A stretch of 41,559 nucleotides of DNA. Origin: an uncultured Pseudomonadales bacterium. Lineage in GTDB: Bacteria; Pseudomonadota; Gammaproteobacteria; Pseudomonadales; Azotimanducaceae. Each line of letters opens with the position of its first letter. The first letter of the stretch is position 1. A program made the position numbers and the translations under genes. Positions 3,189-41,559 of the stretch are shown in pieces. The stretch covers positions 1 through 41,559 of the forward strand of contig CAJJAQ010000060.1 in NCBI GenBank assembly GCA_905182095.1. Reading direction: 5' to 3'. A model generated the notes under the pieces. It was not told the origin of the DNA and did no database searches. It saw only the letters and a list, made by a program, of their open reading frames with translations.

Positions 3189-3799
3189 GCACAAACCCAT
3201 ACATCCTTATTCTCTACTATTCTCGCACCCAAGGGACACAAAACCTTGCCTTACACATGGGCCGCGGCGTCGACAAAGTTGCTGGCATAGAGACCAGAAT
3301 TCGCACCGTACCACCTGTTAGTAGCGTCGCGGAGCGCACAGCGCCATCAGTACCCGACGAAGGTGCGATTTTTTGCACTAAAGAGGACTTAGCTGAGTGC
3401 AGTGGCTTAGCCCTGGGTAGCGCCACCCGTTTTGGCAATATGGCGGCGCCAATGAAATATTTTTTAGACAGCACTGCAGATCTTTGGGCAGGACAGCAGT
3501 TAGTCGGTAAACCGGCCAGCGTATTTTGTTCCACCGGGTCACTTCACGGCGGCCAAGAATCTACTTTGCTGACCATGATGGTGCCACTGCTACATCACGG
3601 CATGGTTATTCAAGGACTTCCTTACAGCCATCCTGAGCTAAACACCACCCAGACAGGGGGCACACCTTACGGTGTGACTCATGTTCAAGGCAAAGACCAC
3701 AGCAGTGCTGCGGTGCTGTCTAAGGAAGAAGCCGCATTAGCTGAAGCCGCAGGCCAACAGTTGGCTGAACTTGCATTAAAAATTAGAGGAGTGTCCTAG
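3185..3799 (+). CDS. wrbA: NAD(P)H:quinone oxidoreductase, WrbA type IV
   Basis: A 204-residue flavodoxin-fold enzyme. The FMN phosphate loop is YYSRTQGTQNLA near the N-terminus and the isoalloxazine contact region is GSATRFGNMAAPMKYFLD. WrbA enzymes reduce quinones by two electrons using NAD(P)H and limit oxidative cycling. The start ATG overlaps the arsC stop, and the TAG stop overlaps the GTG start of the next gene by one base, so the three genes form a tight operon. Length is typical for the family. Confidence 0.93.
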   Translation: MSTNPYILILYYSRTQGTQNLALHMGRGVDKVAGIETRIRTVPPVSSVAERTAPSVPDEGAIFCTKEDLAECSGLALGSATRFGNMAAPMKYFLDSTADLWAGQQLVGKPASVFCSTGSLHGGQESTLLTMMVPLLHHGMVIQGLPYSHPELNTTQTGGTPYGVTHVQGKDHSSAAVLSKEEAALAEAAGQQLAELALKIRGVS

Positions 3800-4155
3800 T
3801 GAAAGGCTGGTTGTTTATCATACTTGTGATGTTGGGATCGCTTATTTCACTGACCGGTCTCAGACAATTTTTTATCGAGCCACTGGCCACACCATCGGTC
3901 AATGCAGTTTGGTTTCTGCTACAGATAGCACCGCTTTTGTTAACCATCCCCGGTGTCATACGAGGCCAGCTGAAAAGTATGTTTTTACTTTGCATGGTCA
4001 GCACGCTGTATTTCATACACGGAATATTAGTGATATTCGACCCGGCATTATTTTGGTTCGGCACAGCGGAGTTGTTCTTTTCTCTCGCTGTTTGCCTTGT
4101 CAGTGCATTATTTGTGCGCAAGCTGCGAGAGTTTAACGGGCCACCAGAAGAGTAG
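3799..4155 (+). CDS. DUF2069 family membrane protein
   Basis: A 118-residue protein of four predicted membrane helices and almost nothing else: helix 1 at residues 3-22, then segments near 32-52, 58-78 and 83-105. It starts with GTG, supported by an AGAGGAG ribosome-binding site ending 8 bp upstream, and overlaps the wrbA stop by one base. DUF2069 proteins are commonly found after arsC-wrbA in gammaproteobacteria. Their function is unknown; linkage suggests a membrane partner of quinone or thiol redox chemistry, which is inference only. Confidence 0.85.
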   Translation: MKGWLFIILVMLGSLISLTGLRQFFIEPLATPSVNAVWFLLQIAPLLLTIPGVIRGQLKSMFLLCMVSTLYFIHGILVIFDPALFWFGTAELFFSLAVCLVSALFVRKLREFNGPPEE

Positions 4156-4188
4156 ATTCTAACGCTACAACCTGATTTTACTAACACC

Positions 4189-4263
4189 AAGCCTAAGTCC
4201 AAGCCCAAGCCCAAGTCCAAGTCCAAGCCCAAGTTTGGACTTAGATTTAGACTTAGATTGGGG
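4189..4263. repeat. Inverted array of hexanucleotide repeats
   Basis: Eight head-to-tail hexamers of the form AAGYCY (AAGCCT, AAGTCC, AAGCCC and so on, 4189-4236) are followed by four related hexamers in the opposite orientation (4237-4260). The two blocks can pair: CTAAGTCCAA at 4193-4202 is exactly complementary to TTGGACTTAG at 4235-4244. The element lies between the convergent 3' ends of the DUF2069 and SulP genes, so it may act as a two-way terminator. Confidence 0.8.
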
Positions 4264-4320
4264 ATTAAACCAGACGGTTCAAAAAGCAGGCTGCTATTGG
4301 CGTGAGCAGTAACTTTCTCT

Positions 4321-5886
4321 TTAACCTAAAGTATCTTCAGCAATAAAATAGCGAGGATCTTCAATCACGTTCACTTCCACCAAACTTCCGGCCTTTCTCA
4401 ACAAACGCTTACACTCAGCGCTCAGATGTACCAGATGCAAAGTCTTGCCACAATTCAAGTAACGCTCAGCTAGGGTATCTATAGCCTCCAAGCCAGAGTG
4501 ATCACAAACCCGCGACCCGGCAAAATCTACAACCACGTCGTCGTTAGCCATTGTTGGATCGAAACGGTCTAAAAAAGACGTTACTGAACCAAAAAAGAGT
4601 GGCCCATGCACAGCGTAAACCGTTGAACCTTTGTGATCTTCACGGGCCTCAACATGCACTTGTTTAGCGTGCTCCCAGGCGAATACTAGCGCTGAAACAA
4701 TCACCCCAACAATAACGGCTACGGCTAAATCAGTGGCCACAGTTACAGCAGAAACCAGCACCAAAACCAGTGCATCACTCTTTGGCACTTTGCGAATTAC
4801 CCGGAAGCTACTCCATTCAAAGGTTCCGATAACCACAATAAACATCACACCTATTAGCGCAGCAAGAGGAATTTGTTCGATAAGAGGCGATGCCACCAAA
4901 ATGAACAGTAAGAGGAATAACGCAGCAGAAATGCCAGACAAACGCCCCCGCCCACCAGAATTCACGTTGATCATACTTTGACCAATCATGGCACAGCCAC
5001 CCATACCACCGAACATACCGGTGACAGTATTGCCAATGCCTTGAGCAACACATTCTTTGTTGCCGCGGCCACGAGATTCAGTAATTTCGTCAACTAAGCG
5101 CAATGTCAGCAGTGACTCAATCAAACCTATTGCAGCTAAAATTACTGCATAGGGAAAGATGATTGTCAGTGTCTCAAAATTAAATGGCACAGATGGAATA
5201 TGAAAAGCAGGTAAACCACCGCTAATGGACGCAATGTCGCCCACTACGCGAGTATCCAAGTCTTGTGATACCACCAACAAACTAACCACAACAATGGCCA
5301 CTAGCGAGGAAGGCACCGCTGTTGTCAGCTTGGGCAGAAAGTGAATAATCAGCATGGTCAGGAACACTAGGCCAATTAACATAACGAGCTGGCTGTCTTC
5401 CAACCAAGCAACATCAAGAATACTGCCTTGCATAAAGGTGCCGGCTAACCAACCGGGTTCGCCGACAACACCAAACTGACTTAACTGGGCCAGAAAAATC
5501 ACTATGGCCAAACCGTTTACAAATCCCAACATGACTGGGTGGGGAACCATCCGGATAAATTTGCCGAGACGGAAAACCCCGGCCAATATTTGTAGAATGC
5601 CCATCAGCACAACCGTGGCAAACAAGTACTCCACCCCATGATCAGCAACTAACGCAACCATAACCACCGCTAACGCGCCTGTGGCGCCAGAAATCATACC
5701 TGGCCGGCCGCCAATACATGCTGTTATCAACCCCACCATAAAGGCCGCATATAAACCCACTAAGGGTTGAACCCCGGCGACAAAAGCAAATGCTACGGCC
5801 TCGGGCACTAAGGCCAAAGCCACGGTCAATCCGGATAGAATATCATTCCTTGCAGAAGCGCTTCTGCTAGGTAGGAGGTCGATCAT
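4321..5886 (-). CDS. SulP family anion transporter with STAS domain
   Basis: A 521-residue inner-membrane transporter. The N-terminal signature is close to the family start ([22 protein letters not shown]), followed by 10-14 membrane segments to about residue 400. The cytoplasmic STAS domain is in the last ~110 residues ([20 protein letters not shown]). Bacterial SulP proteins move sulfate, bicarbonate or dicarboxylates, usually with Na+ or H+. The substrate cannot be read from sequence; no carbonic anhydrase or sulfate genes are adjacent. It is monocistronic, and the upstream 277 bp contains nothing I recognise. Confidence 0.92.
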
Positions 5887-35413: not shown

Positions 35414-35430
35414 ATTGGTAACTCTAGAAG

Positions 35431-35598
35431 TGCTTTAAAGACAGCGCTTTAAATACAGTGCTTTGAATAAAGTGCTTTGACTCAAACACTTTAAATTAAG
35501 CGCTTTAGATTAAGCACTTTAGATTAAGCACCTTGGCTTGAGCAGCTTGGCCTGAACACCTTGGATTAGAGACCATAGGTTAGAGACCTCGGTTTTGC
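35431..35598. repeat. Twelve-unit exact-period 14-bp tandem repeat
   Basis: Twelve consecutive units, every one exactly 14 bp, with a consensus of (C/T)RCTTTRRATTAAG on the left drifting to CACCTTGGATTAGA on the right. They fill 168 bp of the 297-bp gap between the convergent PNPOx-like gene and metR. No length slips are seen although the bases diverge heavily, which is unusual for a neutral array. Confidence 0.9.
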
Positions 35599-36661: not shown

Positions 36662-37056
36662 TCACCATTAAATTTTCGAAAACGCATTGTATTCATGTTC
36701 GGACTTTAAGTCACGGGGGTCATGCACATACAACATGAAAAACTAGGCGACAAACTAGGTAAAGAACTAGGTGAAAAACTAGGAGAAGAGCTAGGAGAAA
36801 AACTATGCAAAAAAGCTAGGTGGCAAATTAGGCCGCAAGGCTGACGAATAATAAGAGACGAACTTTTTGGCAAGCCCTATCGCCGTATCACTAGACCAAT
36901 CAAGCAATAGCTAGGTGGTATCAAAATCAAGACAGACTGTCGCATACCTGTTCAGTTAGTTTTGTAAGATCTAACCATAACTTTTTCATTCAGCATAATT
37001 CATGCCACTGAAACAAACGCACTATTCATCCGTTATAAAAATGCGGCGGCGTAAAA
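36662..37056. other. 395-bp divergent gap: metR promoter, 12-bp repeat, cas1 leader
   Basis: Contains the promoters of metR (minus) and the cas operon (plus). A 12-bp repeat, AAACTAGGNGAA, occupies 36740-36835 (see next entry). After it, 36850-37050 is AT-rich with no clear -10/-35 pair and no CRISPR-repeat-like stem. An out-of-frame ATG at 37002 opens a shadow frame of cas1. Confidence 0.55.
36722..36844 (+). CDS. Possible 40-aa KLGE-repeat peptide
   Basis: ATG at 36722 opens a 40-codon frame that reads through a 12-bp tandem array (six exact-length units, 36740-36811, then two drifting ones) and would give a peptide of repeated tetrads (KLGD, KLGK, ELGE, KLGE, ELGE, KLCK). The array fits both explanations: a repeat that happens to be open, or a small basic/acidic amphipathic peptide. 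GGGGGT precedes the ATG but the spacing is only one base. Low confidence that it is translated. Confidence 0.2.
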   Translation: MHIQHEKLGDKLGKELGEKLGEELGEKLCKKARWQIRPQG

Positions 37057-38010
37057 ATGGAACAACTGGATCAACTCAAAGCAATATTGCACTCCAAGCG
37101 AGCGAACATCTATTACCTCGAAAAATGTCGGGTAATGCAAAAAGATGGTCGAGTCCTCTACCTCACCGAAGCAAAAGCCGAAAATCAATATTGGAACATT
37201 CCAATAGCCAACACCACTTGCTTATTGTTAGGCACCGGCACATCTGTCACCCAAGCGGCCATGCGCATGTTGGCATCAGCGGGCGTATTAGTTGGCTTCT
37301 GCGGAGGCAGCGCAACTCCGTTACTGATGGCCACAGAAATAGAATGGATGACACCCCAAAGCGAATACCGCCCCACCGAGTATGTGCAGGCCTGGATGCA
37401 ATTTTGGTTCGACCCAGAAAAACGCTTAACCGTAGCCCAACAGTTCCAACACACACGCATGGACTTCATACAAACCATTTGGAATAAAGACCGCGAACTG
37501 AAAGCCCACGGCATATCCGGCGAAGAACCCAGCATGCAAAAAGCCATAGAGCGCTGCCGCGACAGAACAGATCATGCTGTGAATGTAGGAAACCTCTTAC
37601 AAGCAGAAGCAGAACTCACCAAAAAATTCTATCGATATATAGCAACCACAGTGGGTTATGGCGATTTCACCCGACAACGAGACGGTCAAGATCTAGCCAA
37701 CAGCTTTCTAAACCACGGCAATTACCTAGCGTACGGGTTAGCGGCCACAACATTGTGGGTACTGGGCATACCACACGGCTTCGCCGTCATGCACGGTAAA
37801 ACACGAAGAGGCGCATTGGTATTTGATGTGGCTGATCTTATTAAAGACGCCCTAGTACTGCCCTGGGCGTTTATCTGCGCCAAAGAAAATGCGACAGAAC
37901 AAGAGTTCCGTCAACAGTGCTTACAAGCCTTCACAAACCACGACGCCTTAGGCGTGATGTTTGAAGAAGTAAAAAGAGCAGCGTTAACGAATGGTGCGGA
38001 GGAGCAATAG
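37057..38010 (+). CDS. cas1: CRISPR integrase Cas1, type I-F
   Basis: A 317-residue Cas1 endonuclease that integrates new spacers, together with the Cas2 part of Cas2-3. Catalytic residues at family-like spacing are Glu184 (LLQAEAEL), His246 (VMHGKTRRG), Asp257 and Asp260 (VFDVADLIKD). The N-terminal region matches type I-F Cas1 (LHSKRANIYYLEKCRV). It is directly followed in normal I-F loci by cas2-3; here a 481-bp gap intervenes. All residues appear intact, so adaptation machinery is predicted functional. Confidence 0.95.
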   Translation: MEQLDQLKAILHSKRANIYYLEKCRVMQKDGRVLYLTEAKAENQYWNIPIANTTCLLLGTGTSVTQAAMRMLASAGVLVGFCGGSATPLLMATEIEWMTPQSEYRPTEYVQAWMQFWFDPEKRLTVAQQFQHTRMDFIQTIWNKDRELKAHGISGEEPSMQKAIERCRDRTDHAVNVGNLLQAEAELTKKFYRYIATTVGYGDFTRQRDGQDLANSFLNHGNYLAYGLAATTLWVLGIPHGFAVMHGKTRRGALVFDVADLIKDALVLPWAFICAKENATEQEFRQQCLQAFTNHDALGVMFEEVKRAALTNGAEEQ

Positions 38011-38104
38011 TCACTTTCTGCTAAAGTACCAAATATCCCCAACCCTCTAGTTTCAACGCAAAATATTGTGCGATCGCGTCGATACCGATTCGCTATAACC
38101 GTTA

Positions 38105-38120
38105 GTATAAAAAATTATAC
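38105..38120. promoter_or_regulatory. Perfect inverted repeat, possible operator
   Basis: GTATAA and TTATAC are exact complements separated by AAAA, 24 bp upstream of the putative guide-RNA target. Its size suits a dimeric helix-turn-helix regulator. It also contains -10-like TATAAA. Function not shown. Confidence 0.35.
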
Positions 38121-38143
38121 CGAACGTCGAAAAAATTAAATAA

Positions 38144-38162
38144 AATTAAGAAAAGTTAGTGG
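38144..38162 (-). promoter_or_regulatory. Target site of the cas-locus pseudo-spacer
   Basis: Read on the minus strand the site is 5'-CC (PAM, 38162-38161) followed by ACTAACTTTTCTTAATT (38160-38144). It pairs with pseudo-spacer positions 1-5, 7-11 and 14-17. The upstream end abuts the -10-like hexamer TAAAAT (38141-38146), so binding of Cascade could block transcription. An alternative promoter, TTGAAT-N17-CATCAT (38169-38197), starts 6 bp downstream of the PAM. Confidence 0.7.
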
Positions 38163-38226
38163 TAAAAGTTGAATACCTAGTCCACCAAGCCCATCATGCC
38201 AACATCTTTCCTAAGTGAGTAAAAAA

Positions 38227-38370
38227 TTGAAAATAATCCGCTACTACATTGTCGTAATCTTCATACTCTTGCCTGCCCAAAGTCAGCTTCTCAAGTTGAC
38301 ACAAAGAAGCTATCCGGGGGCGAGCGTTGAACTGAACATTACGCAACACCTAATACTACCGAACAGGTAG
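38227..38370 (+). CDS. Small hydrophobic peptide ORF, candidate CreT-type toxin
   Basis: A 47-codon frame from TTG 38227 (or 51 codons from GTG 38215) with AAGTGAG seven bases before the TTG. The peptide begins with basic residues and a single hydrophobic segment (YYIVVIFILLPA), then a polar tail; this is the shape of small type I-like toxins but also of an ordinary signal anchor. Its TAG stop (38368-38370) is part of the 3' stem of pseudo-repeat 1. No family recognised. Whether it is translated, or the locus acts as RNA, is unknown. Confidence 0.4.
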   Translation: MKIIRYYIVVIFILLPAQSQLLKLTQRSYPGASVELNITQHLILPNR

Positions 38371-38427
38371 CTCAGAAGACTAAGTTTTCGAAATTGCTAT
38401 TTAACTGCCGAGTAGGCAGAAAGACAT
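38351..38427 (+). ncRNA. CreA/CreR-like minimal CRISPR: pseudo-repeat, 21-nt spacer, pseudo-repeat
   Basis: Pseudo-repeat 1 (38351-38378) reads CTACC-GAACA-GGTAG in its stem-loop, then CTCAGAAG, matching 19 of 24 bases of the I-F consensus core and handle; the stem pairs perfectly because both arms changed together. Pseudo-repeat 2 (38400-38427) keeps the canonical stem CTGCC-GAGTA-GGCAG but has lost the 8-nt handle. They flank a 21-nt spacer (38379-38399). Cas6f cleavage after the stems would give one short crRNA-like guide. Pairing with the target is described elsewhere. I assigned this from sequence and known CreTA/CreR architecture; no array from this strain is available to compare repeats. 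Confidence 0.75.
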
Positions 38428-38491
38428 AAACTATGTGGACTGTATCGAGTTAACACAGACTATATTAGTCAGTCAAAAAAGGTAAGTTCCC

Positions 38492-41400
38492 ATGATGGTC
38501 ACTTTTGTATCTCAATGCGAAAAGAAAGCGCTTAGCCGCACCCGTCGTGTATTGGACGCTTTCGCTAATCGTATTGGTGATAACACTTGGCAAACGGTTA
38601 TTACACTAGAAGGATTGGGAGCGGTGAAAAACTTATTGCGCAAATCTGCCAGCAAAAACACGGCGGTGAGTTGTCATTGGATACGCAGCAGATCTAGAAG
38701 TGACCTTGTTTGGGTTGTTGGCAATAAGGCGAAGTTTAACGCGCAAGGCGTGGTGCCGGTTAACACAACAAAAAGAGATGTGTTGAAATCCGATTGGCAG
38801 AACAATTGGTCTCAAGCGTTCAGTATTCAGGTGGTCGCTTCCCTTGCTGCCCTACTCCATGATCTGGGCAAAGCGACTGTTGGCTTTCAACGTAAACTGC
38901 AAAAAAATGCGCCCCGCGGCCTCCCTGACACCTACCGCCACGAATGGATTTCTCTTCACTTGTTTAATTGTCTTATTCGGGGCTGCACAACAGATGAAGA
39001 GTGGTTAAACAGATTCACTCAATTACCTGCATTTTTGAGCGAAGAACCAAATTGGCTCAAAGAGTTTGGAAGCCAGCGTGAGTGTAGTGGGCTAGACGAC
39101 AGGCCGCCTTTGGCCCAATTGTTAGGCTGGTTAATTGTTACCCATCACCGCTTACCTTTTTACAACGAACAGTACTTTTTACCCACAAAACGCAAGGCTC
39201 TTCGCCAGAGCGCATTTTTATATGACTCAAGCGTTCAAGATTTTCTCGCCGAGCTGAAACCAGCAGAATACTGGATTAAAAATCCCAAAGACTGGGACAA
39301 CAGAGGCGACCACTCAGACTACTGGACCCTTAAAGCCCCGCTGCAAGATAACAAGAAATGGCAAACCGCTATTGCGCGATGGTCAAAAAAGGCGCTCGGT
39401 CATAGTCCTCTGCTCACCTCCGCCGCAGAGCTGCGCGGCAACACGCTTTTTCTTCATCTCACCCGGCTGTGTCTCATGGTGGGTGATCACAACTTTTCTA
39501 GCTTGACGCTAGACCAGAGCAATAAAGTTATAACCCCTGATCGCTTCCAAGCGGGCGGCCTTCTCGCAAATACCGATCAAACTAGCAGAGATCCGAAACA
39601 GGCCCTAGACCAGCACCTGCTCGGCGTGGCACTTTTTACCTCGCATTTCGCACGAACCCTTCCGCAGCTAGCACAAAAACTGCCCTACCTAACCGGTGAA
39701 AGTGCCAAAGAACTAACGGCCAGAACCAGCATTAAAAGGTTCCAATGGCAGAACAAAGCTTTTGATCTAGCCAAAAACATACAGGCAGATGCACAAAACC
39801 AAGGCTTCTTTGGCATCAATATGGCGTCTACGGGCACAGGAAAGACCATTGCCAACGCCCGCATTATGTATGGTCTGAGTGATCCAAACCAAGGTGCGCG
39901 GTTTACCATTGCACTGGGACTTAGAGTACTTACTTTGCAAACCGGTCAGGCCCTTGGCGATAAAATGAAACTCACCAAGAGAGAGTTAGCAGTATTAATA
40001 GGCAGCAGTGCTAGCCGTAAACTGTTTGTAATTAACCAAGAAAATAGCGACGGCTACCAGCTTGATGATGAATTTGAAGCCATAGGTTCTGGTTCATTGG
40101 AGAATTTGGTAGACGAAGAGGTGCACTTCGAAGATGACATGATAGAGGACGGCCTAATTCAAGACCTAGGCACTGTCATTGAAAACCCCAAAGCCCGCAG
40201 TTTGCTATTTGCGCCGGTAGTAGCCTGCACAATAGACCATATGATTAAAGCCACTGAAACCGCGAGGGGCGGCAAACATATAGCACCTATGCTGCGCTTA
40301 CTCAGTAGTGATTTGGTCTTAGATGAGCCAGACGACTTTGGTCAATCTGACATGGCTGCCCTTACGCGCCTAGTGCATTTCGCCGGTGTGTTAGGTAGCA
40401 AAGTGCTTTTGTCTTCAGCGACGTTAACCCCTGATTTGAGCGCCGGTCTTTTCACCGCCTATAGTGCTGGAAGAAAAATATGCAACGAACAGCAGGGTAT
40501 TACCAATGGCAATATCAAGTGCGCGTGGTTTGATGAAAACAAAGTGTCTAGTAGCAACTGCGACTCGCACAGCGAATTTGAAACTGCACATAAGGTATTT
40601 GTGGACAGAAGAGTAGCAAAGTTACAACAAGCTCCCACTCGGCACTGGGCTGAGGTATTACCCGTCGAGTTGCCTCCTCCCCCCGAAAATACGGCAATTC
40701 ACTACGCGGGCCTCGCCCGAATACTGCTAGATGAGAGCTATCAATTACATCAACAGCACGCTGAAACCAAAAACGGTAAGAGCGCCAGTGTCGGTCTTAT
40801 ACGTATGGCGAACATTGGCCCACTAATCCACCTTGCATTGGAGTTTTACAAACCAGAACTGAGTATTGAAGGTGTGCAATTTCACCTTTGCTGCTACCAC
40901 GCCCAACAACTACTCATACTGCGCAATGGCATTGAAACAAAGCTCGACAAAATTCTCAGCCGTTCAAGTGACAGCTGTCTTTTTGATCACCCAGAAATAA
41001 GCACACGAATTGATCAAGGCGATGCCGAACATCACGTGTTTATTGTACTCGCAACCGCGGTGGCTGAAGTAGGTCGCGACCACGACTACGATTGGGCCAT
41101 TGTAGAGCCCTCATCAATGCGCTCCATAATTCAATTAGCCGGGCGAGTTTGGCGTCATCGCCCAAATAAAGTTGCAGCCAGCATAAATATCAAAATATTG
41201 GACGCTAACGTCAAGGCGCTTGGCAAAGGCAACTCACTAGGGCTTGGTGACGCTGTGTTCCAACGGCCAGGGTTTGAGGGTGGCGATGAAGGCTGGCTCC
41301 TGCAAAGCCACAAAGTCAGCGAACTGATCAGCCCAGAGCAAATGCACCCACTCAATGCATTACCACGCATATCCAAAGCAGAAAAAATGCAACCTACGGC

Positions 41401-41559
41401 AAGCCTTGCAGACCTAGAACACCACGTAATGCGAACGCTATTGAACAACCCAAGCAGTAACTACGTTAACGCGCTATGGGCTGAAGGCGGCAGCTACGCG
41501 CTTAACTGCCACCTACAAAAAATCAGCCCTTTTCGAGAGCAAAATAAAAAGCAAAGCGA
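38492..41559 (+). CDS. cas3: Cas2-3 fusion nuclease-helicase, type I-F (3' end outside window)
   Basis: At least 1022 codons are open to the window edge. The Cas2-like domain occupies about residues 1-95 (TFVSQCEKKALSRTRRVLDAFA, then TAVSCHWIR), followed by the HD nuclease with His123/Asp124 in LLHDLGKATVGFQ, then an SF2 helicase with Walker A MASTGTGKT (444-452), DEPD at 611-614, SAT in LSSATL and motif VI QLAGRVWRHR from 881. All catalytic motifs look intact. In type I-F this protein both assists Cas1 and degrades Cascade-marked DNA. ATG 38492 is followed by a second ATG; AAGGT lies about nine bases upstream. Confidence 0.96.
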   Translation, partial: MMVTFVSQCEKKALSRTRRVLDAFANRIGDNTWQTVITLEGLGAVKNLLRKSASKNTAVSCHWIRSRSRSDLVWVVGNKAKFNAQGVVPVNTTKRDVLKSDWQNNWSQAFSIQVVASLAALLHDLGKATVGFQRKLQKNAPRGLPDTYRHEWISLHLFNCLIRGCTTDEEWLNRFTQLPAFLSEEPNWLKEFGSQRECSGLDDRPPLAQLLGWLIVTHHRLPFYNEQYFLPTKRKALRQSAFLYDSSVQDFLAELKPAEYWIKNPKDWDNRGDHSDYWTLKAPLQDNKKWQTAIARWSKKALGHSPLLTSAAELRGNTLFLHLTRLCLMVGDHNFSSLTLDQSNKVITPDRFQAGGLLANTDQTSRDPKQALDQHLLGVALFTSHFARTLPQLAQKLPYLTGESAKELTARTSIKRFQWQNKAFDLAKNIQADAQNQGFFGINMASTGTGKTIANARIMYGLSDPNQGARFTIALGLRVLTLQTGQALGDKMKLTKRELAVLIGSSASRKLFVINQENSDGYQLDDEFEAIGSGSLENLVDEEVHFEDDMIEDGLIQDLGTVIENPKARSLLFAPVVACTIDHMIKATETARGGKHIAPMLRLLSSDLVLDEPDDFGQSDMAALTRLVHFAGVLGSKVLLSSATLTPDLSAGLFTAYSAGRKICNEQQGITNGNIKCAWFDENKVSSSNCDSHSEFETAHKVFVDRRVAKLQQAPTRHWAEVLPVELPPPPENTAIHYAGLARILLDESYQLHQQHAETKNGKSASVGLIRMANIGPLIHLALEFYKPELSIEGVQFHLCCYHAQQLLILRNGIETKLDKILSRSSDSCLFDHPEISTRIDQGDAEHHVFIVLATAVAEVGRDHDYDWAIVEPSSMRSIIQLAGRVWRHRPNKVAASINIKILDANVKALGKGNSLGLGDAVFQRPGFEGGDEGWLLQSHKVSELISPEQMHPLNALPRISKAEKMQPTASLADLEHHVMRTLLNNPSSNYVNALWAEGGSYALNCHLQKISPFREQNKKQS

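Follow-up and report, generated by a model that had tools for sequence, protein, structure and literature searches.

A degenerate CRISPR mini-array with a PAM-flanked self-target in the cas1/cas2-3 gap of a type I-F locus resembles CreR and CreA guides

Results

A mini-array in the gap between cas1 and cas2-3

The 41,559-base stretch of DNA analysed here (the window) carries a mini-array in its type I-F cas locus that, judged from its sequence, is a regulatory guide of the CreR/CreA type, a kind already known, and that very probably acts on a CC-flanked self-target, T1, in the same gap between cas1 and cas2-3. The locus occupies the end of the window and consists of a divergent lysR gene, type I-F cas1 (37057–38010, + strand; open reading frame with the Pfam match Cas_Cas1), a 481-base gap and cas2-3 (38492–41559, + strand; open reading frame with Pfam match), which is broken off at the contig end and has its remainder on contig C18 (L008). 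This second contig starts within the end of cas2-3 and continues with csy1, csy2, csy3, csy4/cas6f and a CRISPR array whose repeat, GTTCACTGCCGTATAGGCAGCTAAGAAA, is present in six or more identical copies. Pfam matches confirmed cas1, cas2-3, csy1, csy3 and csy4; csy2 was identified by its operon position. The cas locus is spread over these two contigs, whose join we infer. Two other repeat features were noted in the window. A small open reading frame between lysR and cas1 (36721–36853) contains tandem 12-base repeats encoding (x)KLG units, with a run of six A between two reading frames, each of which carries on the KLG pattern, and an intergenic cluster of repeats of about 15 bases, GCACTTTA/AGCGCTTTA, partly inverted, is located at 35429–35531.

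As stated in the original prediction, the gap contains two I-F-like stem-loops 21 nt apart, and all elements named there were recovered. The first (psi-R1, 38351–38378, + strand) has the stem CTACC/GGTAG (38356–38360 and 38366–38370) followed by the 5′ handle CTCAGAAG (38371–38378, + strand); the second (psi-R2, 38400–38427, + strand) has the intact stem CTGCC/GGCAG (38405–38409 and 38415–38419) and has lost its handle. The 21-nt pseudo-spacer between them (38379–38399, + strand) is ACTAAGTTTTCGAAATTGCTA when read as crRNA. Cas6f cuts are predicted after 38370 and after 38419, and a mature guide RNA modelled on I-F crRNA anatomy would comprise 49 nt (8 + 21 + 20; 38371–38419, + strand) with the 5′ start CUCAGAAG. 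For the CreA RNA of Acinetobacter, the accessible text of PMC10097628 gives 8 + 20 + 20 nt by sRNA-seq.

The prediction had also proposed a comparison with the genome's own array repeats, and psi-R1 and psi-R2 each match GTTCACTGCCGTATAGGCAGCTAAGAAA at 18 of 28 positions. A 5-bp stem combined with at least 18 of 28 repeat matches occurs at two places in the whole window, psi-R1 and psi-R2, both on the + strand. Among 5000 dinucleotide shuffles of the 481-base gap, two contained at least one such hairpin and none contained the pair. The minimum-energy structure includes both hairpins (z −2.25), and 6 of 200 shuffles folded equally well. A search of the whole window with Rfam gave no match at gathering thresholds; at relaxed thresholds CRISPR-DR4 matched psi-R1 on the + strand with 22.5 bits (E 0.021), below its gathering score of 35. 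Two degenerate cognate repeats close to cas genes correspond to the anatomy of CreR and CreA loci. Ordinary type I-F arrays have near-identical repeats and 32-nt spacers, whereas the repeats found here match at 18 of 28 positions and the spacer has 21 nt.

A self-target flanked by a type I-F PAM

T1 was identified in this analysis; the original prediction had named no target and had chosen neither CreA nor CreR. T1 lies at 38140–38160 on the − strand, is flanked by a CC PAM (38161–38162, − strand) and pairs with guide positions 1–5, 7–11 and 14–17, with positions 6, 12, 13 and 18–21 unpaired. It is the guide's one strong CC-flanked match in the neighbourhood, with a run of 10 when position 6 is excluded and matches at 14 of 18 non-flipped positions. 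Guide shuffles, scored against the 43 CC sites up to 300 nt away in either direction, gave p values of 1e-4 by run and 3.5e-4 by total, and against the whole window of 0.006 and 0.018, respectively. In a stretch of about 1.6 kb, CC yielded the run of 10 and the other 15 dinucleotides yielded best runs of 3–5, and the guide read in the opposite orientation reached a best run of 4. T1 is situated about 190 bp upstream of the guide and about 330 nt from cas2-3. It presents the partly matching, PAM-flanked site within the cas locus that characterizes CreR and the nearby PAM-flanked target that characterizes CreTA. In Acinetobacter CreA, positions 2–5, 7–9 and 13–17 are needed and positions 6, 11 and 18 are naturally unpaired (PMC10097628, accessible text); T1 departs from the needed positions at position 13 only, which is mismatched here.

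The guide's second-best CC-flanked match, T2 (36665–36687, + strand; 13 of 18, with mismatches including position 2), overlies the promoter of the divergent lysR beside cas1, together with the start of that gene, and does not exceed what chance gives over the whole window. The LysR regulator PigU represses type I-F in Serratia, as reported in the accessible part of PMC10810281. T2 was rejected as a second target and judged a chance match, because it is mismatched at position 2, because it ties with another 13/18 site in the window and because a module-free genome of the same genus has CT at its PAM.

Mini-arrays in other type I-F loci

Among the 80 relatives listed of 538 found by a cas1 search, cas1 abuts or overlaps cas2-3 in most; where both genes were located, the spacing was at most 6 nt in 58 of 77 and at least 79 nt in 19 of 77. 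Our scans found no mini-array pair in 16 of these 19 long gaps (79–1619 nt; e.g. L012, L025, L031 and L048). L049 is among these 16 and carries its mini-array behind cas2-3.

Isolated I-F-like hairpin pairs were searched for in these 80 loci and in the two loci of the window's own genome. The scan returned 12 pairs, one each in 12 relatives, and none in reversed sequences. Three pairs lie in the cas1/cas2-3 gap (L016, L021 and L072) and seven between cas2-3 and csy1; in the remaining two (L036 and L069) csy1 was not located. A CC-flanked self-target was present nearby in all 12. A target-based scan added L081, which, having been found through its target, is not independent evidence for targets; for the remaining 26 relatives, repeat structure was the sole basis of detection. 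When 390 genomes of the order were searched by pattern, 12 genomes matched, with no control matches: the window's own, the known L036, eight with a target and two without, the latter resembling ordinary arrays. In 369 genomes of the class, 11 genomes matched, six of them new and all six with a target; the others were known loci again or array-like. In the target of L127, positions 6 and 7 are both unpaired.

Altogether, 29 structure-found mini-arrays were analysed, and 26 of them have a nearby CC target. The three without a target look like ordinary arrays: L099 and L102 have identical or near-identical repeats with a 30-nt gap, and L131 belongs to a locus with 51 such stems. The family of 28 evaluated below comprises the window, the 26 structure-found members with targets and L081. 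It leaves out L096, L125 and L133, which are the same loci as L036, L049 and L021, as well as L099, L102 and L131; six G632 matches, judged array-like from the search listing, were left out both of the 28 and of the 29 analysed.

Shared pairing rules, spacer lengths and stems

Over the 28 members, mismatches between guide and target were absent from positions 1–5 (0/140) and amounted to 11/140 at positions 7–11 and 12/129 at positions 13–17, against 22/28 at position 6, 20/28 at position 12, 17/24 at position 18 and 61/107 beyond position 18. The targets had been ranked on the non-flipped positions, so that the counts at those positions are biased. When targets were chosen by CC and guide bases 1–5, 7 and 8 alone, exactly one site within 260 nt was obtained at 22 of 22 loci (before the last six were added), and the pattern at positions 9–18 was unchanged. 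Type I effectors flip every sixth base out of the duplex, and the mismatch pattern is therefore the expected residue of selection on effector binding.

The spacers of the 28 members measure 13, 14, 15 (two members), 19 (five), 20 (six), 21 (two), 24 (three), 25 (two), 26 (four), 27 and 29 nt, i.e. in classes close to a 32-nt spacer minus 6, 12 or 18 nt. Only 5 of 50,000 uniform draws showed as high a periodicity of about 6 nt, under a null that ignores the probable kinship of L036, L069 and L081; R was 0.57 for period 6, 0.49 for period 5 and 0.45 for period 7, indicating a step of about 6 and not sharply 6. The stepped lengths suggest complexes that lack one, two or three of the Cas7f subunits present in the normal one. 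According to the accessible part of PMC7296934, type I-F1 guides from which 6, 12 or 18 nt have been removed still load Cascade, and R-loops form without triggering Cas2/3, with weak binding at minus 18. The original prediction of a CreA/CreR-like form, from which Cas6f would make a short guide for Csy, gains support at the sequence level from the self-target with its I-F PAM, from the I-F analogues with the same target rules and from the stepped spacer lengths.

In the psi-R1 stems of 22 members, 110 of 110 cells are paired and both sides have changed in four of the five pairs. None of 500 shuffles reached the covariation score; a measure of further pair types in the same stems was not above shuffles (460 of 500 as high). 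The window's stem CTACC/GGTAG recurs in L016, L072, L101 and L128. On the earlier argument that stem conservation points to selection these data bear only weakly: the stems of the family covary, but the pairing is partly there by construction, since the searches required stems that pair fully or almost so, demanding five pairs or allowing little else, and the covariation is for this reason not independent evidence.

These rules also bear on the possibility that the mini-array is a functionless, decaying remnant of an ordinary CRISPR array. The degeneracy of both repeats (18/28) would fit such decay. Against it stand the compensated stem, a 21-nt spacer that falls into a family with stepped lengths, and a self-target that appears with the correct PAM only. 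The apparent array pieces that were met (L099, L102 and L131) lack a target, and their repeats are identical or nearly so; we regard a decaying remnant as very improbable.

Gain or loss of the 481-base module

The module between cas1 and cas2-3 (38011–38491, no strand assigned), which was either inserted or lost, is missing from the same-genus genome G128. There, cas1 and cas2-3 overlap by 4 nt, and the amino acid identities to the window are 96% for cas1 and 89% for the compared part of cas2-3. In each of the assembled cas1 and cas2-3 of this genome (L094, contig C19 of G128, 3489–5785), one tryptophan codon is replaced by a stop codon; no conclusion is drawn from these stops, since the contig ends in adapter-like sequence. 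Relatives in which the stems decay freely next to intact cas genes would, according to the original prediction, have refuted it. None was seen, and the closest relative, G128, lacks the module as a whole and has stops in cas1 and cas2-3, which as a single genome with an adapter-like contig end weighs little in either direction.

In 205 other genomes of the organism's family, the module gave only six short matches of 21–37 bases. By pattern, no I-F-like stem is present in any of the six loci, and all six were for that reason treated as chance. Four are A+T-rich pieces. The match in L109 (33 columns at 88%) takes in the pseudo-spacer along with the beginning of psi-R2, but falls within an open reading frame, and that in L110 (37 columns at 84%) extends over the T1 stretch. 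Because no close relative has kept the module, covariation between T1 and the guide cannot be shown in this lineage.

A plasmid or phage origin of the module was considered and rejected, as plasmid and phage collections contained no match to it. The same result bears on the idea that the element is a solitary-repeat or Racr-type decoy blocking Csy, or a guide against foreign DNA. Phages do carry repeat-like RNAs that inhibit type I-F (PMC10651486, accessible part). A Racr or solitary repeat is a single repeat on a phage or mobile element, however, and the window has two repeats, inside the cas operon, together with a self-target, so that a decoy or a guide against foreign DNA is exceedingly unlikely.

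Orientation of guides and targets

In 22 of the 28 members the target precedes the guide, read along the strand of the guide, and the guide is transcribed away from the PAM-facing side. Among those 22, the PAM-facing side holds the next cas gene wherever neighbours were placed. The exceptions to this common orientation are the window, L018, L027, L098 (beside which a cas3-like gene was identified by reading its sequence), L101 and L106; in L018 the guide is on the csy1 strand, but the target comes after the guide. In 2 of the 28, the window and L106, the guide is in sense, with its target on one side and a cas gene on the other.

L016 (from Amphritea atlantica), L021 and L072 share with the window the cas1/cas2-3 gap and the orientation of the target to cas2-3, and L016 and L072 the psi-R1 stem as well. 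They differ in that their guides are transcribed away from cas2-3 and that their targets are only about 20–35 nt from the guide. In L106 (G239), the mini-array (1447–1596) lies between divergent csy1 and cas1, with the guide in sense just upstream of cas1 and, as in the window, with the PAM facing guide and cas gene. Unlike the window's, it precedes cas1 and not cas2-3, has a 25-nt spacer, and its target (1447–1473) covers the start codon of the divergent csy1. L106 therefore does not demonstrate repression of a sense-strand unit, and csy1 may be the repressed gene there. Of the two members with this sense layout, L106 thus has a divergent cas gene at its target, and the window has none.

Where relatives have clear promoters, the −35 element starts 0–2 nt after the PAM. 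A −35 element at this distance was the best-scoring site in 9 of 23 targets, five of them with shuffle p ≤0.05. In a profile averaged over 181 offsets, −35 offsets 0 and 1 rank second and third and offset −48 ranks first, so that the profile is suggestive only in favour of PAM-adjacent promoters. From target to next cas gene, L066, L072, L070 and L083 have about 69–86 nt, a spacing that fits cas autorepression and leaves little room for a toxin.

Other members have small open reading frames behind the target. By eye, L128 (about 1620–1850) shows the target, a TTGACA promoter, a mini-ORF led by a Shine-Dalgarno (SD) sequence with four consecutive arginine codons, a G+C-rich hairpin and then csy1, and L101 (about 1640–1850) a similar CreT-like unit before csy1. 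SD-led ORFs of 49 aa in L016 (8159–8308; basic and hydrophobic, no Pfam match) and of 78 aa in L018 (11492–11728) lie between the target and the next cas gene, and may be cargo or toxin genes under control of the guide. Both cas-autorepressing and toxin-module kinds thus seem to be represented in the family.

Candidate transcripts controlled from T1

Promoter-like sites in the gap were scored by a weight matrix with approximate hexamer frequencies. The top + strand score belongs to TTGAAT-17-CATCAT (38169–38197, + strand), which starts 6 nt after the T1 PAM and is weak (8/12, shuffle p 0.33). On the other side of T1, TTTATT-19-TATAAT and TTTCGA-17-TATACT (38104–38144, − strand) read towards the cas1 end. 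The highest score of either strand, 7.8, was obtained for TTGACT-17-TTAACT (38448–38476, − strand), which reads antisense through the guide. Between guide and cas2-3, the weak site TGGACT-19-TATATT (38436–38466, + strand) is a possible unrepressed start. On neither strand of the gap did a stock promoter scan report a sigma-70-like site or a terminator scan a terminator. From the ORF list and reading by eye, no SD-led mini-ORF was recognised in 38011–38491. A 51-aa ORF with a GTG start (38215–38370, + strand), located between T1 and the guide and ending in psi-R1, has no Pfam match and, by eye, no good Shine-Dalgarno sequence; it was rejected as a toxin and is probably a chance ORF.

On balance we consider it likely that the repressed unit is the cas2-3 transcript, i.e. 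that the system represses itself. Cas6f would cut after both stem-loops and release the 49-nt guide with its 21-nt spacer, which would load a shortened Csy complex. This complex would bind T1 via the CC PAM and form an R-loop too short for Cas2/3 cutting, acting as a roadblock or by promoter occlusion. The transcript repressed would be that of the + strand, running through the guide into cas2-3 and on to csy1–csy4, so that the system would keep its own supply of effector in check until crRNAs or anti-CRISPRs take Csy away and lift the repression. We favour a + strand unit that continues into cas2-3 and the csy genes, because T1 is oriented to cas2-3 as the targets of L016, L021 and L072 are, because the top + strand promoter score of the gap starts 6 nt after the T1 PAM, and because neither a + strand terminator nor an SD-led mini-ORF was recognised in the gap. 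Several observations weigh against self-repression: the + strand promoter at T1 is weak, with its −35 element 6 nt from the PAM and not at the 0–2 nt of the clearest relatives; the − strand candidates of the gap score higher, the best of them antisense through the guide, and the stock scan reported no sigma-70-like site there at all; T1 is much farther from cas2-3 than are the targets of the tightest relatives from their cas genes; and guide position 13, needed in Acinetobacter CreA (PMC10097628, accessible text), is mismatched.

The main rival to self-repression of cas2-3 is a CreTA-like addiction module, in which the guide would be the antitoxin (CreA), T1 would control a small toxin, and loss of Csy would free that toxin. 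The candidate for the toxin would most likely be a − strand RNA with its start near 38107 that would extend antisense into the cas1 end, or else the 51-aa + strand ORF. The characterised I-F example, in the accessible text of PMC10097628, is the CreTA of Acinetobacter, whose toxin is divergent from creA. In favour of such a module in the window, the − strand TATAAT/TATACT sites just beyond T1 outscore the + strand site, and the module was gained or lost as a unit. The target of L128, followed by its mini-ORF with the four arginine codons and its hairpin, and the similar unit of L101 (both read by eye) show what such a module may look like among the relatives. In the window's gap, however, neither an SD-led mini-ORF nor a terminator on either strand was seen (RNA toxins need not be recognisable), and the 51-aa ORF lacks a good ribosome-binding site and a Pfam match. 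A − strand transcript would, moreover, enter cas1, whereas the targeted side faces a cas gene in the other members with placed neighbours. We rate an addiction module as less likely than self-repression.

Both could apply at once, the guide repressing a + strand unit that consists of a small cargo gene, for a toxin or another small protein, and cas2-3, in the manner of CrePA. The SD-led ORFs of 49 aa in L016 and 78 aa in L018 occupy such a place, and a CrePA with a protein toxin is described in the accessible part of a review (PMC12737573). The sole + strand ORF of at least 40 codons in the corresponding place of the window (38215–38370) is weak, overlaps psi-R1 and has no Pfam match, so we hold such a combined unit to be improbable.

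If cas2-3 is self-repressed, the position of the guide in sense between T1 and cas2-3 means that Cas6f should cut the guide out of the cas transcript itself. It is possible, if somewhat less likely than not, that the cas transcript carries its own repressor guide in this way: an mRNA started at T1 or reading through from upstream would be cut twice by Cas6f, and the guide would return to block the start of the same unit.

Discussion

CreR RNAs are reportedly cas-regulating RNAs from mini-CRISPRs (Liu et al. 2023), and mini-arrays directed against cas promoters are said to occur across type I, with one type I-F1 case tested (Shmakov et al. 2023). The CRISPR-derived RNA regulatory elements of the latter work reportedly include I-F mini-arrays beside cas genes with a partial self-match, and the class of I-F mini-arrays is on this account already known. 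With CreR, the window's element shares two degenerate repeats, a short spacer that partly matches a PAM-flanked site of the cas locus, and a Cascade expected to act on its own promoter; it differs in its type (I-F), in its place in the cas1/cas2-3 gap, and in having the guide in sense between target and cas2-3.

In the parts of the literature accessible to us, the CreR types named are I-B, I-E and V-A (PMC13131331), CreR is treated for type I and V-A in general (PMC12737573), and it is also covered in a further review (PMC12948488). The CreTA of Acinetobacter WCHA45 belongs to type I-F, lies between cas3 and csy1 and has a divergent toxin with an SD-led mini-ORF (PMC10097628, accessible text). 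It resembles the window's element in its place in a gap of an I-F cas operon, in the order psi-R1/psi-S/psi-R2 (with a psi-S of 20 nt) and in the CC PAM, whereas the window has no recognised SD-led mini-ORF and its guide points towards cas2-3. No description of a sense-strand, in-transcript layout was found in the titles and abstract openings that our searches of the open literature covered. The kind of element is thus known, and its sense-strand, in-transcript layout may be a new variant.

The mini-array provides a well-defined type I-F case of CRISPR machinery that apparently regulates itself, with a specific 21-bp target. If the guide is indeed cut from the cas transcript, one guide would arise per cut mRNA, and effector output, mRNA cleavage and repression would be a single event, amounting to one-to-one feedback. 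The rules shared by the family can serve in the search for more mini-arrays: a CC PAM, unconstrained bases at guide positions 6, 12 and 18, and spacer lengths that fall by about 6 nt per step, in line with the truncated I-F guides, which bind but leave Cas2/3 untriggered. Anti-CRISPRs would release immune genes that use a guide to sense free effector.
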